Shown: in pieces, positions 1,619 through 59,416 of the stretch
Numbering within the stretch: position 1 is the stretch's first letter
Layout: each line of letters starts with the position of its first letter
IMG/VR virus record: IMGVR_UViG_3300036985_006248
Location: 1 to 64,000 of that record
Length of the DNA stretch: 64,000 bases
From: a virus
Strand: one strand, 5' to 3'
Made by a program: the position numbers and the translations under genes
Notes under the pieces: generated by a model
The model's database searches: none
Told to the model about the DNA's origin: nothing
The model's input: only the letters and a program-made list of their open reading frames with translations

Positions 1619-2164
1619 TTATGATTGCGTTAAAGTTTTTCTATCTTTTCTTACATCTTCTTGGTCGTATGCCTCATCATCTTTTGGAACGCGCATGAAT
1701 CCGGGATCTGAATCTTGTTTATTATAAACTTTGTACACGTTCTGTTCATCTGGGCTGATGGACATTTCATAGTTGTCAAGTTTGTCGCTTTGTGTCTTCA
1801 TATTTCTATCGCGCAGCAAAACAGTTTTTATAAAACTAAACAACTGCCGATCTATCTTTCCTTCCAGCATATCTACAATATCTTCCGGCTTCAGACCGGG
1901 GGCGACCTGTCGAATGCTTTTTTCAAAGTTTGGCAGATCGTCTTTATTGTCGGTTGGGTTTTTAGTAATGTAGTTACGATATTGGATAAAAAGATGCGTA
2001 AGCTTGCGTTCCACCCCGTTTAGAGTATCGCCTCTTGAAGCACTTTTCATTTGATCAATGCGTTTTAATGCATTATGCTTTTTAGCCTCATCTTCATTTT
2101 CATACAGGGCTTTTTTAATTTCTTCTTTTATAATTCTTGATAGGAAAGATTTGCGTACCTTCAT
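1619..2164 (-). CDS. Hypothetical protein with the same basic N-terminal leader
   Basis: 181 residues, 7 nt upstream of the 1234..1611 gene. It begins MKVRKSFLSRIIKEEIKKAL, the same leader pattern as its downstream neighbour, followed by a highly charged, mostly helical body without recognisable catalytic motifs (an LKPEDIVDMLEGKID segment looks helical). The tail is acidic and rich in D/K. It overlaps the 60-residue gene upstream by 50 nt. A packaged internal protein or scaffold accessory is possible from the leader; no family assigned. Confidence 0.7.
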   Translation of the reverse strand: MKVRKSFLSRIIKEEIKKALYENEDEAKKHNALKRIDQMKSASRGDTLNGVERKLTHLFIQYRNYITKNPTDNKDDLPNFEKSIRQVAPGLKPEDIVDMLEGKIDRQLFSFIKTVLLRDRNMKTQSDKLDNYEMSISPDEQNVYKVYNKQDSDPGFMRVPKDDEAYDQEDVRKDRKTLTQS

Positions 2165-2297
2165 GGTCTTGGTTACTCGTTTGTAATTTAAAAAAACTTG
2201 CTAAAATTCTTGCTTGTTCTAGTTGTTCTTTTGTGAGTTTATCGCTTGTGGCACGTAAACTTTCTAATAATCTTTTTAGTTCTTCTTCATCTGACAT
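2115..2297 (-). CDS. Small helical hypothetical protein
   Basis: 60 residues, ATG at 2297, 7 nt after the primase stop, overlapping the next gene by 50 nt. The first 40 residues (MSDEEELKRLLESLRATSDK and on) are a strongly predicted charged helix with heptad-like leucines; the tail is basic. Position in a tight operon supports it as real. No function recognised. Confidence 0.55.
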   Translation of the reverse strand: MSDEEELKRLLESLRATSDKLTKEQLEQARILASFFKLQTSNQDHEGTQIFPIKNYKRRN

Positions 2298-2304
2298 AGA
2301 TATC

Positions 2305-3255
2305 TTACAAATTCATTATTTTACTCATAAGCATATAATCGCTATCCTTAATTAGTCTAGCCTGTTTCTTATGCTCAAGAAATTCATCATGTGACATGTC
2401 GCCAACGTCTTTTCCTATTGGAATCTGGATTTTGTATACTTCTGCACCATAACTCAACAGGTTATTAATTAATTTCTCAGCTTTTTTCTCTGCATCTGGA
2501 TCCAAGGCTACATATATTGCAGGGTCGTGACGAATTAGCTCTTTAAACAGCCTTGAATTTTCACGCAAAGAAGAACCTAGAATGGGAATAGCATTTTTTG
2601 CTTTAATTGCATCAAATGCTCCTTCTACAATGGTAATATCTTTGGACCAATCAACGAAAAGTTCATTAAAAATGATATCGCGTGGTGTCTGAGGATTCAT
2701 ATACCTCTTCCAAGCGTTTTCATATGTTCTTGCAACAAAATAGTCAACCTTACCGTCAAGATTAAAGGAGGGAATGATGATTCTTCCTGCATATTCTCCT
2801 GAATTGGCGTATCCTATCTTCCAATACAAGAGATCTTCGCGTGTTAATCCTCTATCTTTGAGATATCGACGGGCAGCGAGTGATAAGATTCCCATTTCTT
2901 TATTGCAAAGTGAATGAAACTCAGCGGGGAGATTGATTACTTCTGCTTCTTCCTCGGTTGCATCTTCTACGAAGAAGATTTTCTCATATTCTGTGATTTC
3001 AACGATGCCCGAAAGCTCGTTCCAAGTCTTTTGTTGTAGATAATTGCCGAATCTGCGTACTAAACGATGTATTGACTTACCTGAATAATCACAGGTCCAG
3101 CACTTAAACATGTTCTTTTCGATGTTACAGCTTAATTTATACTTTTCTTTATGATTATTTTCACAACGGGGACATTTAAATAATAATTCTTTCCCCTGTC
3201 TAAAAGAATTGCCTAAAATCTCATTGAGAATTTGAGCTTTTTTCGTCTCCGACAT
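2305..3255 (-). CDS. DNA primase, T4 gp61-like (zinc ribbon + TOPRIM)
   Basis: 316 residues. An N-terminal zinc ribbon is visible (C28-x2-C31 and C52-x2-C55), followed by a TOPRIM core: E211 in the VEGAFDA motif and D252/D254 in the ALDPDAE motif, the usual Mg-binding acidic residues. The size and order match T4 gp61-type primases, which lay down RNA primers with the gp41-type helicase at the replication fork. The gene start overlaps the end of a GIY-YIG homing endonuclease, and its first 20 or so bases are repeated imperfectly at the other end of that endonuclease. The Shine-Dalgarno before 3255 is weak. Confidence 0.9.
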   Translation of the reverse strand: MSETKKAQILNEILGNSFRQGKELLFKCPRCENNHKEKYKLSCNIEKNMFKCWTCDYSGKSIHRLVRRFGNYLQQKTWNELSGIVEITEYEKIFFVEDATEEEAEVINLPAEFHSLCNKEMGILSLAARRYLKDRGLTREDLLYWKIGYANSGEYAGRIIIPSFNLDGKVDYFVARTYENAWKRYMNPQTPRDIIFNELFVDWSKDITIVEGAFDAIKAKNAIPILGSSLRENSRLFKELIRHDPAIYVALDPDAEKKAEKLINNLLSYGAEVYKIQIPIGKDVGDMSHDEFLEHKKQARLIKDSDYMLMSKIMNL

Positions 3256-4039
3256 TTATATAACCCCAAGTCTTACCGCTGGTTATTGATGCAATATTAC
3301 TTTTAGAAAGATTAAATATTTTTGCAAGTGTTCTAGTGCTATATTTTTTTGATTTGTATATTTCTCTTATTTTGAGCACAATTTCATAAGTTACTTTAGC
3401 ATTTCTTCCACGACTAGTCAAAGAAATCCTATTTTTGTGCTCTTCTGAAAATACCTTACCGCTCATAGAAATTGAAAGATTCTTCTTATGCTCGTCTGAA
3501 AACTTTCTTTTTAAGCCCTTTTGGCCCTTGCTTAGATTGTTTTTATGCGTTTCGGTAAAAATCATGCCCTTTCGCGCATCAGAAATATTTTTTTTATGTT
3601 CTTCCGTAAACTGCATGCCGAGTCGTGCTTTACTGATTTTCTTTTTTGTTTCCTCGGAGACAATTTTTCCCTTATTAGCTTGACTTATTTTTTTTCTTGC
3701 TTCTGGGCTAAACTCGTTATGGGGATTCCCTGCAATCTTAGAAATATTATAGCCGTTGAGCGGATTGTAAGACTTATATTTGTCTAACCAGAACTGTTCT
3801 CTTGCCTCTAGGCTATCCCTATTGAATACAGTTTCCAGAATTTCAAAGATAAAATTATCTTTTCCGTGCTTATTCCATGATTTTTGTAACAAATGGGAAT
3901 GATGACGGTTGTTATTTAATTGCCATAAATGGTATTTATGACGATTCCAAACGTTAACAGAAGAACCTATATAAAGTTTCCCATTGATGAGATTTTTTAT
4001 ACAGTATATTCCAGTTTCTAGCTTTTTGGCGTCTGACAA
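3221..4039 (-). CDS. GIY-YIG homing endonuclease with NUMOD3 repeats
   Basis: 272 residues, TTG start at 4039 inside the 3' end of the RuvC-like gene. Motifs: GIY at 10-12, YIG at 23-25, an arginine in NRHKYHL near 33, and a Glu in the EQFWLDKY helix. Residues about 110-215 hold several NUMOD3-type repeats (F-S/T-E-E-H-K-K-N-I/L-S pattern with GK/GM/GR), followed by a C-terminal helix-turn-helix-like segment (STRTLAKIFNLSKSNIASI). This is the usual DNA-recognition layout of free-standing phage homing endonucleases. Its N-terminus MSDAKK echoes the primase start MSETKK, so it seems to use a duplicated primase start. The frame looks intact. Confidence 0.92.
   Translation of the reverse strand: MSDAKKLETGIYCIKNLINGKLYIGSSVNVWNRHKYHLWQLNNNRHHSHLLQKSWNKHGKDNFIFEILETVFNRDSLEAREQFWLDKYKSYNPLNGYNISKIAGNPHNEFSPEARKKISQANKGKIVSEETKKKISKARLGMQFTEEHKKNISDARKGMIFTETHKNNLSKGQKGLKRKFSDEHKKNLSISMSGKVFSEEHKNRISLTSRGRNAKVTYEIVLKIREIYKSKKYSTRTLAKIFNLSKSNIASITSGKTWGYINVGDEKSSNSQ
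3232..3255 (-). repeat. Imperfect direct repeat, copy at primase start
   Basis: Minus-strand ATGTCGGAGACGAAAAAAGC is the primase start and resembles TTGTCAGACGCCAAAAAGC at 4021..4039. Differences are a few substitutions and one A in the A-run. The two copies bracket the GIY-YIG gene. Confidence 0.6.
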
Positions 4040-48559: not shown

Positions 48560-49759
48560 TTAGATTATAATCAGATTTCCGTGTCCGTTTTTTAATAAAT
48601 CAGCAGCTTCTATAAAAGAGGTTAATAGACTTTGTTCATTCATCATTTTCTTAACATGCGGAGCTAACTTCTTTGCTTGTGACTTAAAACGCCCATAATC
48701 CTTATATACTTCACGAAGCTTTTCCTTGTAGCTGTTCATTAACGGATAAGCCCAACTGGTGCCTTCTTCTAATACACCCTTCCAAACATGTTCTTTGGCG
48801 ATAGGTTTTAATTCATAGTCAATCTTGCCAAACATACGCTTGCCATCCATATAGAGGAAATCAACGTGTCCGCTCCAATCGGTGGCAACAACAGGCAATT
48901 CATTTGCAGCAGCTTCCATTAACGGGAGCCCATAACCCTCTCCATGTGTCGTAGAAACGATTGCTTTAATCTTTGGGTGAACGTATAGGGATTCTATTTC
49001 CCCTTCGCTCATATGCCCGTGCAGAAGGGTTACACTGCATTTTCTATTAGGGAAGTTACTCAATAAACCCTCTAGACGCTTTTTAGTGAAGGTTCTATCC
49101 ATAATAGAATCGTTTGCAGTATTAATTTTTAATAAAAGCCCAACTTCTTCACTACGGAATTCTTCTAAAAACCCAATAATTGTTTGGTCTAGATTCTTTC
49201 TCGGACCCCATTGGCATATAGCTAGAAAGTTAAAATCGTGTTTTAGCGATAACTCTAAAGACTTTTTTTCAACATTCTTGTATGGTAAATGTACTACCTC
49301 AACAGGTACCGTCACCTTGAACTGCTTTCCTTCATTATTTCCAAAAACTGTATTCACAAAACTATTTTTTGCATGTTCACTGATAACAATAATTTTATCC
49401 ATTTGTTGGCTAGGCTCAAGCCACGCTGGGCTGATAAAATTTGTTTCTATGCCCGCCGTATAGCCAATATTTATTGGTGCCATCTTCTTCCATTCGTTTG
49501 GAATAGATATTTGTATTGCTACATCAAATTGTGGATTATTACCAGAACTTTGAGCATATGTTTGTGTCTTCGCGGCTAGATTATCGATAAGAGTACGTTC
49601 TTCATTAACTTCAAATAGGTTACCGGTGTTACCCCAAGCAGTTGGCAAAAGATACAAGTCTATGTCTTGTTTATCTTTTAATGAGCGTAATGCAAAACGT
49701 GCCATTTCTCCATACCCGCTGCGGCTTAATAATGGACCACTGATCAAGATTTTTTTCAT
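48560..49759 (-). CDS. Glycosyltransferase, GT4/GT1-type
   Basis: 399 residues. N-terminus MKKILISGPLLSRSGYGEMA and C-terminal domain with FLAICQWGPRKNLDQTIIGF, then THGEGYGLPLMEAAANELPV and DWSGHVDFL. The last are the nucleotide-sugar binding and E-x7-E region of GT4-like enzymes. Probably paralogous with the 47389..48558 enzyme. 1 nt from the intron-split glycosyltransferase downstream. Confidence 0.85.
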   Translation of the reverse strand: MKKILISGPLLSRSGYGEMARFALRSLKDKQDIDLYLLPTAWGNTGNLFEVNEERTLIDNLAAKTQTYAQSSGNNPQFDVAIQISIPNEWKKMAPINIGYTAGIETNFISPAWLEPSQQMDKIIVISEHAKNSFVNTVFGNNEGKQFKVTVPVEVVHLPYKNVEKKSLELSLKHDFNFLAICQWGPRKNLDQTIIGFLEEFRSEEVGLLLKINTANDSIMDRTFTKKRLEGLLSNFPNRKCSVTLLHGHMSEGEIESLYVHPKIKAIVSTTHGEGYGLPLMEAAANELPVVATDWSGHVDFLYMDGKRMFGKIDYELKPIAKEHVWKGVLEEGTSWAYPLMNSYKEKLREVYKDYGRFKSQAKKLAPHVKKMMNEQSLLTSFIEAADLLKNGHGNLIII

Positions 49760-49760
49760 T

Positions 49761-51252
49761 TTAGTATTCCTTTACTTCCCAATTCTTATATTTTTTTCGT
49801 GTCTCCCAAGAGCCGTACTTCTCATGGAATTCAGTAAAGATTGTAACCCAAGACTTCTGGAATTGTTCAAAGCCAAAGTTCTTTTGAACATTGTCATATC
49901 CTTTACGACCAACAGCCTTACGTTCTGTTCTTGTCATATTATGTATCTTTTCAAGAGCAGCTATGAAATCTTCCTTTGAAATACGGTCTTCATAGATATA
50001 TGGTACTTCTTGTGAACCAATTATTGCTCGGCTAGCAGGCTCAATTAAGACACCATATGTATCAACCCCATCGGTTAGTTGGTCTTGCATACCGCCTGTC
50101 TTTGTGGCAATAACTGGCGTTCCGCAAGCTAGGCTCTCCAATACCGAGAGTCCGAAGCCTTCTGCATCGCTGATATTTATCGTGCAGTCAGCGGCGTTAT
50201 AAAATTTAGCCATTTCTGCTGCTGGTACTTTTCCTGCTGAAATAGCAAAGTTTTCTTTAGTTAAACCAAGTTCTTCCGCGATGGCAATTAGATCTTGACC
50301 ATTTTGATCTTTTGGGTCAGTATGCATTAGGAGAAGCGCCTTGTCATGTCCTACCTTGTCCAAGAATTCTTTATACCACCACATGACAGTTCCGCTCATC
50401 TTACGGCGTGCATTACGGTTTGTCCAAAAAAACATTGTTTTATCTTTTGGTTGTAAGTGCGTGAACTGACTTTCATCAAGAATCTTAAATAAGTCTGGGC
50501 TGACCGCGTGTGGAACATACTGTTCTTCGACTTCTGGGGCTACAGTTTGCACAATGTCGCTTGTAAGCTTTGAAATAGAACATATCTTATCATTTGAAAG
50601 ATAGAATTGACGATTGAACTTTGGATAAGGATAGTTATCCCATACGTGATAATATAGAATAGGAACATTAGGACGAATCTCTTGCTCCATCTGCCATAGC
50701 CAAGTATAAAAACGAGGATCTGTCATCATCCAGATGATATCGGGCTTCTCTTTCACCAATAGATTTCTGATTAGCTCCGGTGTACCATACCCATCAACTG
50801 GAATGATAATAAAGTCGTCACCATACTCTTGGAATTTAATTGGTCTGTAGTCTTGATGCTTAATAGCACCACCCAAAGAAATTATTTTAAAATTACCAGT
50901 TTTCATCAGGGCTTGAAAGATGTAGTTACACTGAGTACCTACGCCGCTCGGTGATACTTTGATGGACTATATCATCACTTTAAAAGTGTTGGGCGCTGTC
51001 GGATCATTGCCATACAATATTATTGTTTAGGCTAACCGTAGTCTCTGAACCTTCGCCATCTTTTCAGAACAGGCGCTAGGCTGCTGATTGTTCTTAACTA
51101 CTCTTTTTTAACATTCGCGTTTGTCGTTTCCAACTGCGCTGTAGTGAGTAGTTTTACAGAAGTTTCCAGCAATTCACCCAATTTTATATCCGCTATTACC
51201 GAGTGGTTAACGGATGGTCACCTAGAGTTAATATTTTTATCTTTTTCTTCAT
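49761..51252 (-). CDS. Glycosyltransferase (GT4-type) split by a group I intron
   Basis: Two exons: 51210..51252 (43 nt) and 49761..50956 (1196 nt), joining to 412 codons. Exon 1 starts with ATG 51252 behind AAGGAG at 51260..51265 and reads MKKKIKILTLGDHP, then splits a Leu codon. Exon 2 begins TATCACCGAGCGGCGTAGG, so the join reads GDHPLSPSGVGTQCNYIFQA, the expected N-terminal acceptor loop. The C-terminal domain has FFWTNRNARRKMSG, SDAEGFGLSVLESLACGTPV and a TGGMQDQL segment. Without splicing translation stops in the intron after 18 codons (HPLTTR then TAA). ATG 50906 is in-frame in exon 2 but has no Shine-Dalgarno and would lack the first 31 residues. Confidence 0.88.
50957..51209 (-). ncRNA. 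Group I intron, subgroup IA-like, without ORF (253 nt)
   Basis: Self-splicing ribozyme core is complete. P1: exon AUCCGU paired with intron GCGGAU, U:G at the 5' splice site. P3: UUGGGUG with CGCCCAA. P4: UGCUG with CAGCA. P5: AACUACUC with GAGUAGUU. P6: CGCC with GGCG. P7: GACUA with UAGUC. P8: CACUUU with AAAGUG. Conserved P (GAATTGCTGGAAAC), Q (AATCAGCAGCCTAGC), R (GGTTCAGAGACTA) and S (GATATAGTCC) elements are in order, and extra hairpins between P7 and P3 strands suggest IA. The last intron base is G (complement of 50957). The 3' end after P7 is short, so a P9 is not obvious. Confidence 0.93.
51202..51223 (-). repeat. Exon 1/intron junction copy of diverged repeat
   Basis: Minus-strand AGGTGACCATCCGTTAACCA plus two bases; 15 of 22 positions match 51456..51477 in the same codon phase (GDHPLTT against GLHPLTA). 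The two copies bracket the Vsr-like endonuclease remnant. Confidence 0.45.
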
Positions 51253-51460
51253 TTAACAGCTCCTTTAGTATCGCTTCTTTGTCTTGATTATAGTCGAATT
51301 CCCAAACTATTTTAATATGAAAATTCTGTGTTCTTAAAAAGTCTATTCTTTGCTTGTCTTGTTCCCAAACCTGTTTAGCTAATAATTTCTTCTTTTTATT
51401 GAGCGAATCTTCTTTATAAAATCTGGGATCTGCATGCCAATATGTACCATTAATCAGCGG
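51218..51460 (-). pseudogene. 5'-truncated Vsr-like (EDxHD/PD-(D/E)XK) homing endonuclease remnant
   Basis: 80 codons are open between an in-frame TAA at 51461 and TGA at 51218, without a start codon. The sequence runs INGTYWHADPRFYKED, then KQVWEQDKQRIDFLRTQNFH and IKIVWEFDYNQDKEAILKEL: this is the C-terminal half of the Vsr-like homing endonuclease fold, with the YWHADP motif and the terminal WEFD strand. The N-terminal half is absent. It overlaps exon 1 of the adjacent glycosyltransferase by 35 nt. Confidence 0.75.
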
Positions 51461-51477
51461 TTAGCGGGTGAAGACCC
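51456..51477 (-). repeat. Diverged copy of glycosyltransferase 5' end, upstream of endonuclease remnant
   Basis: Minus-strand GGGTCTTCACCCGCTAACCG and two further bases; translates as GLHPLTA in the frame corresponding to GDHPLTT at 51202..51223. It lies directly before the remnant's first endonuclease codons and just after the gmd stop. Confidence 0.45.
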
Positions 51478-51478
51478 T

Positions 51479-52468
51479 CTATCTGACATTTAAAGTTTCC
51501 TTTTGTAAATCCGAGTTATACATTATGGTTGCTAATTCTTTGGCGTCTATCTTTGCTTCCCAGCCTAAGATTCGCTTTGCCTTAGAAGCATCAGCTAATA
51601 GTAATGGCACGTCACTGGGGCGTTTAAAGCTGTCATCAATGACAACGTGCTGGAATAGATCAAACCCGGCTGCTTCAGAAACAAATGTAATAAAATCTCT
51701 TATTGTATTTGTCTTACCAGTTCCTAAAACATAATCATCGGGTATTCTATGTTGCATCATCATCCACATTCCTTCGACGTATTCTTTCGCATATCCCCAA
51801 TCCCGGCATGCATCTAGGTTTCCAAGACGCAATTCTTTTTCAAGTCCTAACTTAATTCTTGCAGCAGTTTTGGTAATCTTTCTAGTAACAAATTGCTCTC
51901 CTCTTCTCGGAGATTCGTGATTAAAGAGAATACCAGAACATAGAAAGAGATTATAAGCTTTACGATAGTTTATTACCAAGTTGTGTGCAGCTACTTTGGC
52001 GCACCCATAAGGCGAAACAGGAGAGAGAATCGTTTGTTCGTTTTGTGGTGCGTTACCATTATCTCCGAACATTTCACTAGTAGATGCTTGATAAAACTTT
52101 GTTTCTGGAGACAGGTTTCTAATCGCTTCTAAGCAATTCAAAACTCCAGCAGCGTTTATTTCCAGCGTGCTTTCTGGAGTGGTAAAAGAAGCTCCAACGT
52201 GGCTTTGTGCTCCGAGGTTATAGAATTCATCGGGCTTGTGCGTCTTTACAAGTCTCCATATAGAGGATGCATCTGTCAAATCTGCATTTTCTAAAACTAG
52301 ATTTTTGTTGGTTAGTAAGTGTTCAATGTTGAAATACTTCTTATCTTCCATCGAACTTCGTCTTACCATACCTATAACTTTATAGCCTTTTTCTAATAGA
52401 AATTCAGCAAGAAAACTTCCATCCTGCCCCGTAATTCCCGATATGATACTATTTTTTTGCTTAACCAT
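51479..52468 (-). CDS. gmd: GDP-mannose 4,6-dehydratase
   Basis: 329 residues, a short-chain dehydrogenase with the NADP loop GITGQDGSFL at 11-20, catalytic Y154-x3-K158 (SPYGCAK) and the TSEMFG segment with T130/S131/E132; RPSDVPLL and an ILGW end are also gmd-typical. It converts GDP-D-mannose to GDP-4-keto-6-deoxy-D-mannose, precursor of fucose, rhamnose, perosamine and branched sugars. Length and end are near normal. Its 5' end is new: a diverged remnant of an older gmd start lies at 52740..52811, with a homing endonuclease fragment between. Shine-Dalgarno before 52468 is weak (AGAAAGAG). Confidence 0.93.
   Translation of the reverse strand: MVKQKNSIISGITGQDGSFLAEFLLEKGYKVIGMVRRSSMEDKKYFNIEHLLTNKNLVLENADLTDASSIWRLVKTHKPDEFYNLGAQSHVGASFTTPESTLEINAAGVLNCLEAIRNLSPETKFYQASTSEMFGDNGNAPQNEQTILSPVSPYGCAKVAAHNLVINYRKAYNLFLCSGILFNHESPRRGEQFVTRKITKTAARIKLGLEKELRLGNLDACRDWGYAKEYVEGMWMMMQHRIPDDYVLGTGKTNTIRDFITFVSEAAGFDLFQHVVIDDSFKRPSDVPLLLADASKAKRILGWEAKIDAKELATIMYNSDLQKETLNVR
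52422..52446 (-). repeat. 25-bp direct repeat, copy in intact gmd
   Basis: Matches 52774..52798 at 24 of 25 bases; encodes ISGITGQD in gmd. Partner copy lies 352 bp upstream across the endonuclease fragment. Confidence 0.85.
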
Positions 52469-53600: not shown

Positions 53601-53629
53601 ATTATAAACTAGTCTTCCATTTTTGTCAA
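53601..53629 (-). promoter_or_regulatory. Sigma70-type promoter, perfect consensus
   Basis: Minus strand: TTGACA (53624..53629), 17-bp spacer, TATAAT (53601..53606). Located 25 nt upstream of the nuclease ATG, inside the 3' end of the metallopeptidase gene. A perfect consensus of this kind suggests early transcription by unmodified host polymerase. Confidence 0.82.
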
Positions 53630-54295
53630 GGAGTTTATTTTAAAGTAAAGTCTAGGAGATATAGACCTTAAATATTTTGGATTTTCATCTACAAAATAAT
53701 GTTCAAATCCATTAGCGAAGTATTCTTTTATTGAGGTTGCGGCATAAGACGATATGAATAACTTTGAGGTTAATTGAGCTAATACGTCGTAGCCTACCGT
53801 TTTATATAAAAAATCATCAAACGTTTTGTTGTAATCAAGTTGGACATATAAGCGTGGATCACAATATAATTTCTGCTGTTCTAAAATATCTCTTAGCAAC
53901 TTACGCTTTGATATGAATTCCTCTATAATTTCTTGATCGCCATACACTTCTCTGCCATAGGAGTTTTCTACGCTATGCGCCAACTCATGAATTATAGAAT
54001 TCAAAACTGCATCTTCATCAACTATTAAGCTTGAGAGGAAGATAGCCCCGTTCATATATGCTGATTCGACATTTCTAGATTTAAGTTGTGGAAACTCACC
54101 AATATAGATAATGTCTAGTTCTTTTGCTAAGTTTTGTGGAATTCTATTCTCTATAGTTCTAAAAACTTTGTCTAGGTCTATTTCTTGTTGTAACTTGTCT
54201 TTAATAACAACTTGGACTTCGCCAAAGAGAGTGTGTTCTTTTAACGCACTTTGTGCTTTTTTAACAGATTGCTTTATATGATTTTGACTACCCAT
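53609..54295 (-). CDS. Zinc metallopeptidase (HExxH, ATLF-like)
   Basis: 228 residues. H103-E104-x2-H107 in IIHELAHSVE is the gluzincin-type zinc site and E191 in SIKEYFANGFEHYF is a plausible third ligand, 84 residues later, as in ATLF-like/Anthrax-lethal-factor-like peptidases. Likely an intracellular protease acting on a host or phage target; substrate unknown. It lies between the PhoH operon and the nuclease promoter. Confidence 0.78.
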   Translation of the reverse strand: MGSQNHIKQSVKKAQSALKEHTLFGEVQVVIKDKLQQEIDLDKVFRTIENRIPQNLAKELDIIYIGEFPQLKSRNVESAYMNGAIFLSSLIVDEDAVLNSIIHELAHSVENSYGREVYGDQEIIEEFISKRKLLRDILEQQKLYCDPRLYVQLDYNKTFDDFLYKTVGYDVLAQLTSKLFISSYAATSIKEYFANGFEHYFVDENPKYLRSISPRLYFKINSLTKMED

Positions 54296-54297
54296 TT

Positions 54298-54546
54298 TTA
54301 TTTTTTTGTTTGTGGAGAAGATTCTAAATCTGTTACTGCTTGTTGATACCCACGCATAAAATTCTCTTCTGCAATTAACATAAGAAATTCTGGGAATTCT
54401 TTTAACATCTGTTCCACAATCAGAAGCACAGTTACATTACCATCTTTTGGTTGTCGGGTTTCCCCAACATAATTAACTAACCATTCCTTCATCGGGTTAT
54501 CTTTAGATACTACTTCTGATTGTGGACTTTCCATTTTTGTCATCAT
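54298..54546 (-). CDS. Small hypothetical protein
   Basis: 82 residues, MMTKMESPQSEVVSKDNPMK start, then a probable helix EWLVNYVGETRQPK and a segment NVTVLLIVEQMLKEFPEFLM. Its start overlaps the PhoH stop (ATGATG) and its stop lies 2 nt from the peptidase start. Function unknown. Confidence 0.6.
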   Translation of the reverse strand: MMTKMESPQSEVVSKDNPMKEWLVNYVGETRQPKDGNVTVLLIVEQMLKEFPEFLMLIAEENFMRGYQQAVTDLESSPQTKK

Positions 54547-57083
54547 TATAAAATATCGGCTGCTAATGTAGCGACAGAACTTCTTTCGCCGCGTTTTAAT
54601 GCCACATGCCCCACCAATTCATAAGGTTTCATTTTTTCTATCACGTATGTCAGCCCGTTGGTAGTTGCATCAACATATTGATTATCGATCTGATAAATAT
54701 CCCCCGTTAGTACAATCTTCGTTCCTTCACCAACGCGAGTGATTATAGTCTTTAATTCATGAGAGGTTAAATTTTGTGATTCGTCAATGATAATATATGC
54801 GTTTGAAATTGAACGACCGCGAATATAGGTTAATGCTTCCATTTCGATTGTGCCAGCTTCCATCATCATTCTCATGTGCTCTTTATTACTTCCTAACAGG
54901 AATTCCAAGTTATCTTGCACGGGAGCTAACCACGGAGTCATCTTTTCTTCTAGGGTATTGTGAGTTACGATAAAATCATTGGTTACGTAAAGATGTTCTT
55001 TATTTTCCACAAGAATACATTGTGCTTCTTTTTTTCCAACAAGCTCAATGCTTTTGATACCAACTCCTTGAATATACTTTGTAGAATGTCGTGAAGCTTT
55101 TCTTGAAATGTAGAAAGGATTAATATTTTGTGGTAATGAGACAGTAAACTCATATGATATTCTACGAGAATTTATCTCTCTTCCATCGATATATGACTTC
55201 TTTCCAACTCTATTTCTTTCTTTAATGACAGCTCTTCCACCGAGCGAACGAACCAACTCTTGCATATCTTTAGCGAGTTGCAAAGAGGTTGTAGTAAAAG
55301 ATGATTCTCCGTTTGTTTTTACGGTACCATCTGTATCCATCAATCCTTTTAATAAATTAATTCGGTCTTGCACGCACGAAAACTTATAGATCTCTGGGAT
55401 AAATTTTTCCCACGCTTTTTTATTAGATAAATGTAAGTTATCAAGTATATTTTTTATAGGATTTTGCCAACGGTTTGAACGTTCGGTAAACTCATATTTG
55501 ATTCCATCAATTATTGTGTTGTTATCGCAGCGAGATTGCAGGGTACTTCTGTTAATATTTAATACTTCTAAAGATTTTCCAATACTAGGAAAAGTTGTTT
55601 TTTCTAATGTTTTAACATTAGTTATAGTAACTTGTCTAGCGGGCTTATTATTGTAGAGATCAGTTCTAATGTTGTAAGTAATTGTCTTTCCATCGTTTGT
55701 TAATCTACAGCCTAATGATTTAATTTCATTTTCTACTCTTTTTATCAGTTCATGGTCGGTATTACAAACACTTATATTATTTTTAATACACCCGTCACCC
55801 AATAATACTCCAAGAGTGTATGCAGGAAGAGGCAATTCTTTATCGGTATACTGTACTGGCGAAACTCTAGGTAAAAAGTGATTTAATTTGCCGTTGGTGG
55901 TTTTAAAAGTATCGATAATCTGTTTAGTTGTTCTAACTTGACCATGCTTATTACGCTTTTTTTCTTCAAATGTCCTAGTTAACCACAAGTGGTCTTCACA
56001 ACATTCCGTAGAAGAATCATCGGTAGTTGTAACTTTATAAATTAGTTTCTTCCCCTTCGGAAACACACCTAAAACTCTAGTTGGACTGCCGTCTCGCCCA
56101 ATGACATTATCTCCAACTTTGATAGAGCCCATTTCAACCCAACCAGTAGGAGTAGCCAATTTTGCATCCAGTGGTTGTGGTCCCGGAAGGAAACCGATGT
56201 CTTTTCCCATTGGCTGCACTGGACGGGAGACAATAAGTTTTGTATATATCTTATCTTCAAGGATTTGTTGTAGCCCAGCCGCCAGAGCAATCAAAGTCTT
56301 GCCGCTACCAGCCTTGCCGATAAGAGAAACAATCTTCACTTCTGGATCCATTAGTGAATCAAGAGCAAATTGTTGCTCTTTGTTCTTAGCGTGAACTCCA
56401 AATATGCCACCCTTGAACTCCTTTACTTTAACTAATGATTGGCTGTAGGACTTGAATCTAGCTAAGGCAGACTTTTTCTCATTGGTGTTAGAAACCAACA
56501 TAACATATTCGTTAGCAAAAAGATTAATCTCTTTTTCGAGCAAATAAATCTTATCATTTTTGTGGAATCGATCAATGACAGCATCATCGACTACATGTTG
56601 TTTATAACCAATAAAGACTTCTTCGGCTCGTTCTACTACTTGGTTTGGAACATAGTCTTCAGTTAGGATGCCCAGTGAGTCGCATTTAACTCTCATGTTA
56701 ATATCTTGGGATACTAACACGACGTTCTTATTATCCCCGAGTTTACGTATGAGCGTTAAAGTTGAGGCTATGATTTGATTATCCGGGACGCTCTTTTCAA
56801 AACTGTCTGGTAGTAAAGATAAATCGCAGGGAAGTACCGAGACGCTACCCTTGCCCTTACCAAGCTTAATCTCGTCTTGTAGACTGCCTTTTTCTCGTAA
56901 TCCATCAAGAGTACGAATAAATTGTCTTGCATTAACACCAACACCGTCTTGACGCTTTTTGTGCTTATCAACTTCTTCCAACACCTTAAGAGGAATCCCA
57001 ACATCGTTGTTCTTATAGGCAAAGATAGCATCACAATCGCTTAAATAAACGTTTGTGTCCAAGACATAGTATTTTTTAGACAT
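54546..57083 (-). CDS. PhoH-like protein (PIN + PhoH ATPase) carrying an intein
   Basis: 845-residue precursor. Residues 1-150 are a PIN-like domain (DTNVYLSDCD at 9-18, VLVSQDINMRVKC near 122). Residues 235-301 and 710-845 make up a PhoH ATPase: Walker A GKAGSGKT at 256-263, YIIIDESQN with D767/E768 as Walker B, and VLTGDIYQID near the end. Between LPG301 and T710 is a 408-residue intein; removal gives a normal 437-residue PIN-PhoH protein, a form seen in bacteria and phages with proposed RNA-unwinding or ribonuclease roles. Gene preceded by the CTATTTATA motif. Confidence 0.9.
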   Translation of the reverse strand: MSKKYYVLDTNVYLSDCDAIFAYKNNDVGIPLKVLEEVDKHKKRQDGVGVNARQFIRTLDGLREKGSLQDEIKLGKGKGSVSVLPCDLSLLPDSFEKSVPDNQIIASTLTLIRKLGDNKNVVLVSQDINMRVKCDSLGILTEDYVPNQVVERAEEVFIGYKQHVVDDAVIDRFHKNDKIYLLEKEINLFANEYVMLVSNTNEKKSALARFKSYSQSLVKVKEFKGGIFGVHAKNKEQQFALDSLMDPEVKIVSLIGKAGSGKTLIALAAGLQQILEDKIYTKLIVSRPVQPMGKDIGFLPGPQPLDAKLATPTGWVEMGSIKVGDNVIGRDGSPTRVLGVFPKGKKLIYKVTTTDDSSTECCEDHLWLTRTFEEKKRNKHGQVRTTKQIIDTFKTTNGKLNHFLPRVSPVQYTDKELPLPAYTLGVLLGDGCIKNNISVCNTDHELIKRVENEIKSLGCRLTNDGKTITYNIRTDLYNNKPARQVTITNVKTLEKTTFPSIGKSLEVLNINRSTLQSRCDNNTIIDGIKYEFTERSNRWQNPIKNILDNLHLSNKKAWEKFIPEIYKFSCVQDRINLLKGLMDTDGTVKTNGESSFTTTSLQLAKDMQELVRSLGGRAVIKERNRVGKKSYIDGREINSRRISYEFTVSLPQNINPFYISRKASRHSTKYIQGVGIKSIELVGKKEAQCILVENKEHLYVTNDFIVTHNTLEEKMTPWLAPVQDNLEFLLGSNKEHMRMMMEAGTIEMEALTYIRGRSISNAYIIIDESQNLTSHELKTIITRVGEGTKIVLTGDIYQIDNQYVDATTNGLTYVIEKMKPYELVGHVALKRGERSSVATLAADIL
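54957..56180 (-). mobile_element. Intein with LAGLIDADG endonuclease, apparent class 3
   Basis: 408 residues beginning PQPLDAKLATPTGW with no Cys, Ser or Ala at position 1, followed by +1 Thr. The class 3 hallmarks are present: W66 in block B (ECCEDHLWLT), C388 in block F (EAQCILVENKEHLYVTNDF) and T406 of the VTHN end. LAGLIDADG motifs lie at about 121-130 (YTLGVLLGDG) and 274-285 (INLLKGLMDTDG). Residues about 182-231 look like a NUMOD1 DNA-binding insertion (FPSIGKSLEVLNINRSTLQS). Site is between Walker A and Walker B of PhoH. Confidence 0.85.
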
Positions 57084-57127: not shown

Positions 57128-57694
57128 CTACAGTATATTCTTAAGATTTTTAATGTGCTTTGTTATAAAATCATTCATCGCAATGCTTCCAGCCACGGCG
57201 GCGTTCAAACTTCTTACCGAACCATATTGGTTGATGTACATATATCTGTCACAAAGAGACAGAGTTTCAGGAGTAATTCCAACTCCTTCTTCACCGATAA
57301 TAATAAGAGGATTTTCAGGCCAAACGAAATCATAAATCGATTCTGCTTGTGGTACTGAATTTTCTAATGCGACAAAGGTATAACGTTCCTTTAGCTTTAA
57401 AAGCTCCTCACGGGTCTTTACGTTAATGATGTCGGTATAGTGGTGGGTTCCAACGGTTCCACGACGGTCGAATTGTTTACGACCCAAATAGAACATTTCG
57501 CGGCCATTCATGGCATTACATGAACGAAGAACACTAGAAAGATTAAAATCTCCAACAAAGTTCTCCATCATTACAGCAAACGGAAAACTATTATTTTGGA
57601 GATCTTTCTTGATTAATTCTGTAGTCCACTTAGTAAAACGGTCTTGCTTATACTTATCGAGAATATTTCTATTATCAACGGGGCTAGCGTCCAT
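57128..57694 (-). CDS. SpoU/TrmH-type RNA 2'-O-methyltransferase
   Basis: Best start ATG 57694 behind GGAGGAAAACG (188 residues); a longer frame from 57718 lacks such a signal. SpoU motifs: NLSSVLRSCNAMNGREMFYL (motif 1), LIIIGEEGVGITP (motif 2) and GSVRSLNAAVAGSIAMNDF (motif 3), which form the trefoil-knot SAM site. The family methylates rRNA or tRNA ribose. An RNA-modifying enzyme next to phage tRNA and PhoH genes suggests tuning of host translation or protection of tRNAs. Confidence 0.85.
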   Translation of the reverse strand: MDASPVDNRNILDKYKQDRFTKWTTELIKKDLQNNSFPFAVMMENFVGDFNLSSVLRSCNAMNGREMFYLGRKQFDRRGTVGTHHYTDIINVKTREELLKLKERYTFVALENSVPQAESIYDFVWPENPLIIIGEEGVGITPETLSLCDRYMYINQYGSVRSLNAAVAGSIAMNDFITKHIKNLKNIL

Positions 57695-57893
57695 CGTTTT
57701 CCTCCAAGGAATCTGCATAATTTATCAGTGCATCGTGAACAAATTTATTAAACTTCTCTTGACTCCAACAGTCCCATCCCATTGCATGTACTAGACTTTC
57801 TTTAAACTCATCGCTAATTTCAAATACTATTGTTGCCGACCCATCATCATTGTCATTGATTTCTGACACTTTGATAGTACCAATTGATTTCAT
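57684..57893 (-). CDS. Small hypothetical protein
   Basis: 69 residues when started at ATG 57893 (MKSIGTIKVSEINDNDDG), which overlaps the previous stop as ATGA and follows AGGAG; the frame opens earlier at 57965 but that region belongs to the 57890..58084 gene. Acidic; contains VHAMGWDCWSQEKFNKFVHD. Function unknown. Confidence 0.6.
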   Translation of the reverse strand: MKSIGTIKVSEINDNDDGSATIVFEISDEFKESLVHAMGWDCWSQEKFNKFVHDALINYADSLEENDGR

Positions 57894-59345: not shown

Positions 59346-59416
59346 TGGACCGACAGGGAATCGAACCCTGAATCACGCCTTGCAAAGGCGTTGTTATACC
59401 GTTTAACTATCAGCCC
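59346..59416 (-). tRNA. tRNA-Ala (anticodon UGC)
   Basis: 71-nt cloverleaf: acceptor GGGCUGA with UCGGUCC, D arm, 5-bp anticodon stem ACGCC/GGCGU with loop UUUGCAA (anticodon UGC), T arm CAGGG-TTCGATT-CCCTG, discriminator A. G3:U70, the main alanine identity element, is present. No CCA encoded. Only one tRNA gene is seen in the window. Confidence 0.95.

Follow-up and report, generated by a model that had tools for sequence, protein, structure and literature searches.

A predicted class 3 intein with a LAGLIDADG endonuclease in a phage PIN-PhoH gene

The phoH gene and the splice points

The DNA analyzed here (the window) comprises positions 1 to 64,000 of an IMG/VR virus record of 174,280 bases (IMGVR_UViG_3300036985_006248). 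On its minus strand, as are all of the window features described below, lies a gene for the RNA-helicase-like protein PhoH (54546 to 57083) that is a single open frame encoding a precursor of 845 residues. Residues 1 to 301 and 710 to 845 of the precursor together make up a PIN-PhoH protein, and residues 302 to 709 are an intein. The 301-residue N-extein (56181 to 57083) contains the PIN domain and Walker A and ends in GFLPG; the 136-residue C-extein (54546 to 54956) begins with Thr+1 and contains Walker B. Pfam searches of the exteins detected PIN_4 (E = 3.7e-28) and PhoH on each side of the insert (E = 5e-14, and E = 5.5e-32 in the C-extein). The layout is thus that of PhoH2, with an N-terminal PIN domain followed by a PhoH ATPase with both Walker motifs. 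The NCBIfam PhoH2 model scored 278.7 bits on this gene, below its full-length cut-off of 680, the gene being split by the intein. Walker A (GKAGSGKT, 56295 to 56318) and Walker B (IIIDESQN, 54771 to 54794) are both intact and flank the intein, which accordingly interrupts the protein between them, as the original prediction had stated. Intein and LAGLIDADG searches of the 174-kb record yielded no second intein, and the element is present in a single copy.

The junctions were placed using PhoH genes that lack the intein. In a viral contig, L390, the phoH gene is intein free, and the window exteins align without a gap to bases 2098 to 3000 and 3001 to 3408. This contig is syntenic with the window over an exonuclease gene, two small genes, phoH, and a SpoU methylase gene, and its PhoH is 78% identical to the window protein over the N-extein and 81% identical over the C-extein. 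In addition, a GFLPG-type loop continuous with the C-extein was found in 75 of the PhoH frames retrieved with the C-extein, all of them free of an intein. Because these intein-free genes fix both junctions, the insertion site is GFLPG/T (the slash marks the point of insertion), residue 1 of the intein is Pro (56178 to 56180), and residue +1 is Thr. The intein therefore occupies 54957 to 56180 and is 408 residues long, exactly as predicted, starting with PQPLDAK and ending with IVTHN ahead of TLEEKM. An alternative splice point that would place Cys or Ser at residue 1, by which the class assignment could have been refuted, was ruled out by the same genes.

Several neighboring genes were also noted. 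A SpoU-type RNA methylase gene (57128 to 57718) adjoins phoH, and its counterpart in L390 is 84% identical and likewise adjacent to phoH. A protein resembling HExxH-type metallopeptidases (53609 to 54295; Peptidase_M90, E = 2.8e-06) is encoded on the other side and is a neighbor of phoH in relatives as well. Glycosyltransferase genes and a GDP-mannose dehydratase gene (48560 to 52468) are carried by this phage genome, and a tRNA-Ala gene with anticodon TGC (59346 to 59416) was the sole tRNA gene found in the window.

Class 3 residues and the proposed splicing route

An intein belongs to class 3 when its residue 1 is not a nucleophile, positions B12, F4, and G5 are Trp, Cys, and Thr, respectively, and residue +1 is Ser or Thr (PMC5222942; PMC3196547). 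The full triad proposed for the window intein is present: W66 at B12, which lies with H64 (B10) in the block B sequence ECCEDHLW (55983 to 56006); C388 at block F position 4 (55017 to 55019), the proposed initiating nucleophile; and T406 at G5, which is followed by the penultimate His and terminal Asn (T406-H407-N408, 54957 to 54965). His at B10, the His-Asn end, and Thr+1 are further features of the class, and residue 1 is not Cys, Ser, or Thr. The triad and the flanking catalytic positions were invariant both in an alignment of 16 sequences (A1) and in a more distant alignment of 25 sequences (A2). Of 283 distinct relatives collected from records of viruses, phages, and bacteria, 282 had the complete triad, the exception having Ser at G5; conservation of block B and of the C terminus is partly built into this count, some searches having been probed with ECCEDHL(W) from block B or with the terminal THN. 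The chaperonin-type search was the only one whose probe included C388. The intein was matched by 607 phage records at E ≤ 1e-3, far above chance.

Besides gp41-1, the best matches among solved structures, by sequence and by the fold of the splicing half, were class 3 DnaB inteins. In Foldseek searches, the splicing half matched MchDnaB1 (6rix and 6riy), MsmDnaBi1 (6bs8), and a gp41-1 carrying a grafted triad (6riz). The catalytic Cys of 6bs8 lined up with C388. The DnaB inteins of Mycobacterium smegmatis (DnaBi1) and Mycobacterium chimaera (DnaB1) resemble the window intein in the fold of the splicing domain and in the W/C/T positions, but they occupy the Walker A site of DnaB, begin with Ala, and have no endonuclease. 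The original interpretation is supported, in that Pro1, the triad, both LAGLIDADG aspartates, the location between the Walker motifs, and the NUMOD1-like insert (discussed below) were each checked and each held; the insert in PhoH is an intein that very probably splices by the class 3 route, which is the less common one.

In the proposed sequence of events, the 845-residue precursor would be translated, and Cys388 would attack the Gly-Pro1 bond to give a first branched intermediate. The N-extein would then be transferred to Thr+1, forming a second branched intermediate, after which Asn408 would cyclize and an acyl shift would link GFLPG to TLEEKM. The product would be a PhoH of 437 residues whose ATP site is complete again. 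A non-nucleophilic residue 1 is also found in class 2 inteins (PMC4031507), and C388 could in principle be structural, with Thr+1 attacking the N-terminal junction directly. We regard this as extremely unlikely, given that the known class 2 inteins are all KlbA orthologues, with Cys+1 and with Asp at F4 (PMC4031507; PMC3196547), that Cys F4, Trp B12, and Thr G5 are conserved across the family of the window intein, and that a C(F4)A substitution abolished splicing in three class 3 inteins (PMC5222942).

A decayed or cleavage-only element would not splice and would at most sever the PIN half of the precursor from its ATPase half. There are precedents for decay, in that one class 3 member is a dead pseudogene (PMC3196547) and endonuclease residues have been lost in some relatives of the window intein (L019 and L034). 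Nevertheless, the dead pseudogene lacks Cys F4 and His B10, both of which the window intein has. Every catalytic position is preserved here, the frame remains open, and conservation extends to both exteins with their Walker A and Walker B motifs. Loss of splicing is for these reasons very unlikely, and we infer on good grounds that the intein splices from C388, that PhoH depends on this splicing, and that the element homes.

The predicted endonuclease and its NUMOD1-like insert

Pfam analysis of the intein detected LAGLIDADG_3 (E = 5.6e-11, over its cut-off), Hom_end_hint (E = 2.9e-07), and Hom_end (E = 5.6e-05). Both LAGLIDADG motifs had been predicted to be intact, and the aspartate of each is in place: D129 in YTLGVLLGDG (55791 to 55820, from the alignment) and D284 in LLKGLMDTDG (55326 to 55355, within the LAGLIDADG_3 match). 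The two aspartates are kept in nearly all close relatives (46 to 61% identical), with loss of motif residues in L019 and L034. An AlphaFold2 model built on A1 (pLDDT 91.5, pTM 0.85) had as its top Foldseek match in the PDB the yeast VMA intein, PI-SceI (E = 3.7e-17; TM scores of 0.63 and 0.61), and the endonuclease part matched I-DmoI. Because the model matches PI-SceI, class 3 DnaB inteins, and I-DmoI, the element as modeled is a Hint splicing domain joined to a two-motif LAGLIDADG endonuclease. PI-SceI has the same bifunctional architecture; it differs from the window intein in being class 1 (Cys1), in having a different extra DNA-binding region, and in sequence (~14% identity).

The endonuclease carries an insert of 59 residues (176 to 234; 55479 to 55655), which had been described as NUMOD1-like. 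The NUMOD1 model (PF07453) scored 19.0 bits on the insert alone and 16.0 bits on the whole intein (E = 0.014), neither of which reaches the curated cut-off of 22.8 bits. The position of the insert and its predicted helix-turn-helix (200 to 219) fit the description, whereas the score of this copy falls short of it, and because of that score we use only the label "NUMOD1-like." The insert is found in inteins of the L001-L019 type and is absent from most other aligned class 3 relatives. It might therefore be asked if it is simply a loop specific to this lineage, a reading that would leave the rest of the interpretation unaffected. Consistent with such a loop, the window copy and all tested siblings but one were below the cut-off, the exception being L018 at 23.6 bits, and several siblings had no match. 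Conversely, matches with E ≤ 1 were found at one common position in 10 of 16 members (the best, 6.1e-05, on the insert alone), the DNA-binding models of I-HmuI and I-TevI gave weak matches that are located in the insert too, and the predicted fold is strand-strand-helix-helix-strand, with helices at 200 to 207 and 211 to 219. On balance, a mere lineage-specific loop is improbable, and residues 176 to 234 are likely to be an extra DNA-binding module resembling NUMOD1. The literature searched contained no relevant report of NUMOD1 in LAGLIDADG inteins.

Once freed, the 408-residue intein would act as a two-motif LAGLIDADG homing endonuclease, with the NUMOD1-like helix-turn-helix providing an extra DNA contact, and would cut intein-free phoH alleles at GFLPG/T during mixed infections. 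We hold with considerable confidence that this phage PIN-PhoH (PhoH2-like) gene is interrupted by a bifunctional intein of class 3, for which splicing, the order of its steps, cutting, and homing would proceed as outlined.

Insertion sites, relatives, and the N-terminal junction

Earlier work regards class 3 inteins as a monophyletic group that originated in phages (PMC4031507; PMC3196547), and class 3 PhoH inteins have been named for Mycobacterium fortuitum and Mycobacterium xenopi (PMC6195587, Fig. 6a). Class 3 inteins in PhoH are thus already known from mycobacteria, and the window intein adds another. The M. fortuitum and M. xenopi inteins share with it the class 3 triad and the PhoH host but are chromosomal and mycobacterial. 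Other class 3 inteins of mycobacteriophages and mycobacteria (in DnaB, TerL, and RecB; PMC5050341) are of the same class, have the WCT triad, and are spread by phages, but they occupy other host proteins and sites, PhoH being absent from that report. A phage PhoH intein has been reported in Campylobacter phage IBB_35 (PMC3322345); unlike the window intein, its sequence has Cys1, the end SKN/C, a Walker B site (VDE/C), and no class 3 end, and on inspection it is class 1-like.

The class 3 relatives occupy three sites in PhoH: Walker A (GK/T), the loop GFLPG/T, and MRGR/T. Inteins at Walker A include those of L010, L015, L035, and the cultured Vibrio phage 1.161.O, and inteins at GFLPG/T are those of the window and 23 others. 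The MRGR/T inteins, at a different site from that in the window, are in bacterial chromosomal PhoH genes of Acidobacteriota (L149, L151 to L155, and L175). Four PhoH genes (L015, L103, L137, and L180) each carry a pair of different class 3 inteins, one at each of two sites. Other hosts of relatives are the Walker A motifs of DnaB and other ATPases, the phage chaperonin (GDG/T), and portal and terminase genes. The intein of Vibrio phage 1.161.O resembles that of the window in its class 3 triad, phage PIN-PhoH host, and LAGLIDADG endonuclease type but differs in its Walker A site (GSGK/T), its Ala1, and its lack of the NUMOD1-like insert. Its gene (L227, 1995 to 4442; MG592529.1, NVP1161O_150) is annotated merely as a hedgehog/hint domain protein and offers a convenient laboratory case.

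The nearest intein, that of L001, is 61% identical to the window intein, yet the exteins are just 36% and 56% identical; in L079 the exteins are closer (51% and 63%) and the intein is 53% identical. Such disagreement between intein and extein is what horizontal movement predicts, and these pairwise identities, with mobility judged from relatives alone, fit movement of this kind. Two specific events were considered and not adopted. A quick tree suggested two independent entries into GFLPG/T by different class 3 lineages (L020 and L037 versus the insert-bearing clade), but a single clade was not rejected (AU test, P = 0.124). A clear jump of L010 from GFLPG/T to Walker A was not supported either, trees with and without L010 in the clade both being acceptable (P = 0.755 and 0.921). 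With these findings, the range of class 3 inteins comes to include a loop site in phage PhoH and a lineage carrying an additional module that resembles a DNA-binding one. One gene with three sites, empty alleles, and double-intein members provides a natural set for studying the choice and change of insertion site.

Residue 1 of class 3 inteins is regarded as free, being no nucleophile. Among the 283 inteins, residue 1 was Pro in 56 of the 59 with Gly at -1 (the other three had Cys) and in 2 of the 4 with Ala at -1, and Pro1 was not found after Lys or Arg (0 of 215); the Pro1 inteins span PhoH, chaperonin, portal, and terminase hosts. A Fisher test on these counts ignores relatedness, and its P value is not readable as a probability. 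In the best trees, residue -1 changed three to four times, and residue 1 nearly always switched in the same way; the pairs that were independent and on well-supported branches numbered one to two, leaving the test of independence underpowered. The association in the sequences is plain, though the pattern could have arisen through shared ancestry in a small number of host genes. That residue 1 is adapted to the residue that ends the N-extein, with Pro after Gly and Ala (or Ser) after Lys, is a tentative proposal to which we give somewhat less than even chances, and because few independent switches are supported, a functional rule is a lead only. Conceivably, the pairing has a chemical reason, as the Gly-Pro imide would be the bond attacked by Cys F4. 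If such adaptation is real, moving between a Gly site (GFLPG/T in PhoH or GDG/T in chaperonin) and the Walker A Lys site would need a change of residue 1, and a functional pairing would give a simple rule for designing tools from class 3 inteins. The literature searched, whose scope did not extend to Tori and Perler 2011, contained no earlier report of the GFLPG/T site, the NUMOD1-like insert, or the Pro1/Gly(-1) pairing, and no relevant report on Pro in class 3 inteins.

Two further groups of relatives deserve mention. Class 3 inteins with Pro1 are found at the ATP-site motif GDG/T of phage chaperonins (Cpn60/GroEL), with 17 in the first set (L030, L045, L047, L051, L055, and L063, among others); the phage chaperonin gene of L062 contains only a mini-intein of ~139 residues. 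Finally, Cys1 occurs together with a complete W-C-T triad in three chaperonin inteins (L346, L347, and L374) and in L026, L187, L199, L251, L296, and L312, and these may be natural forms whose chemistry is intermediate between that of class 1 and that of class 3.
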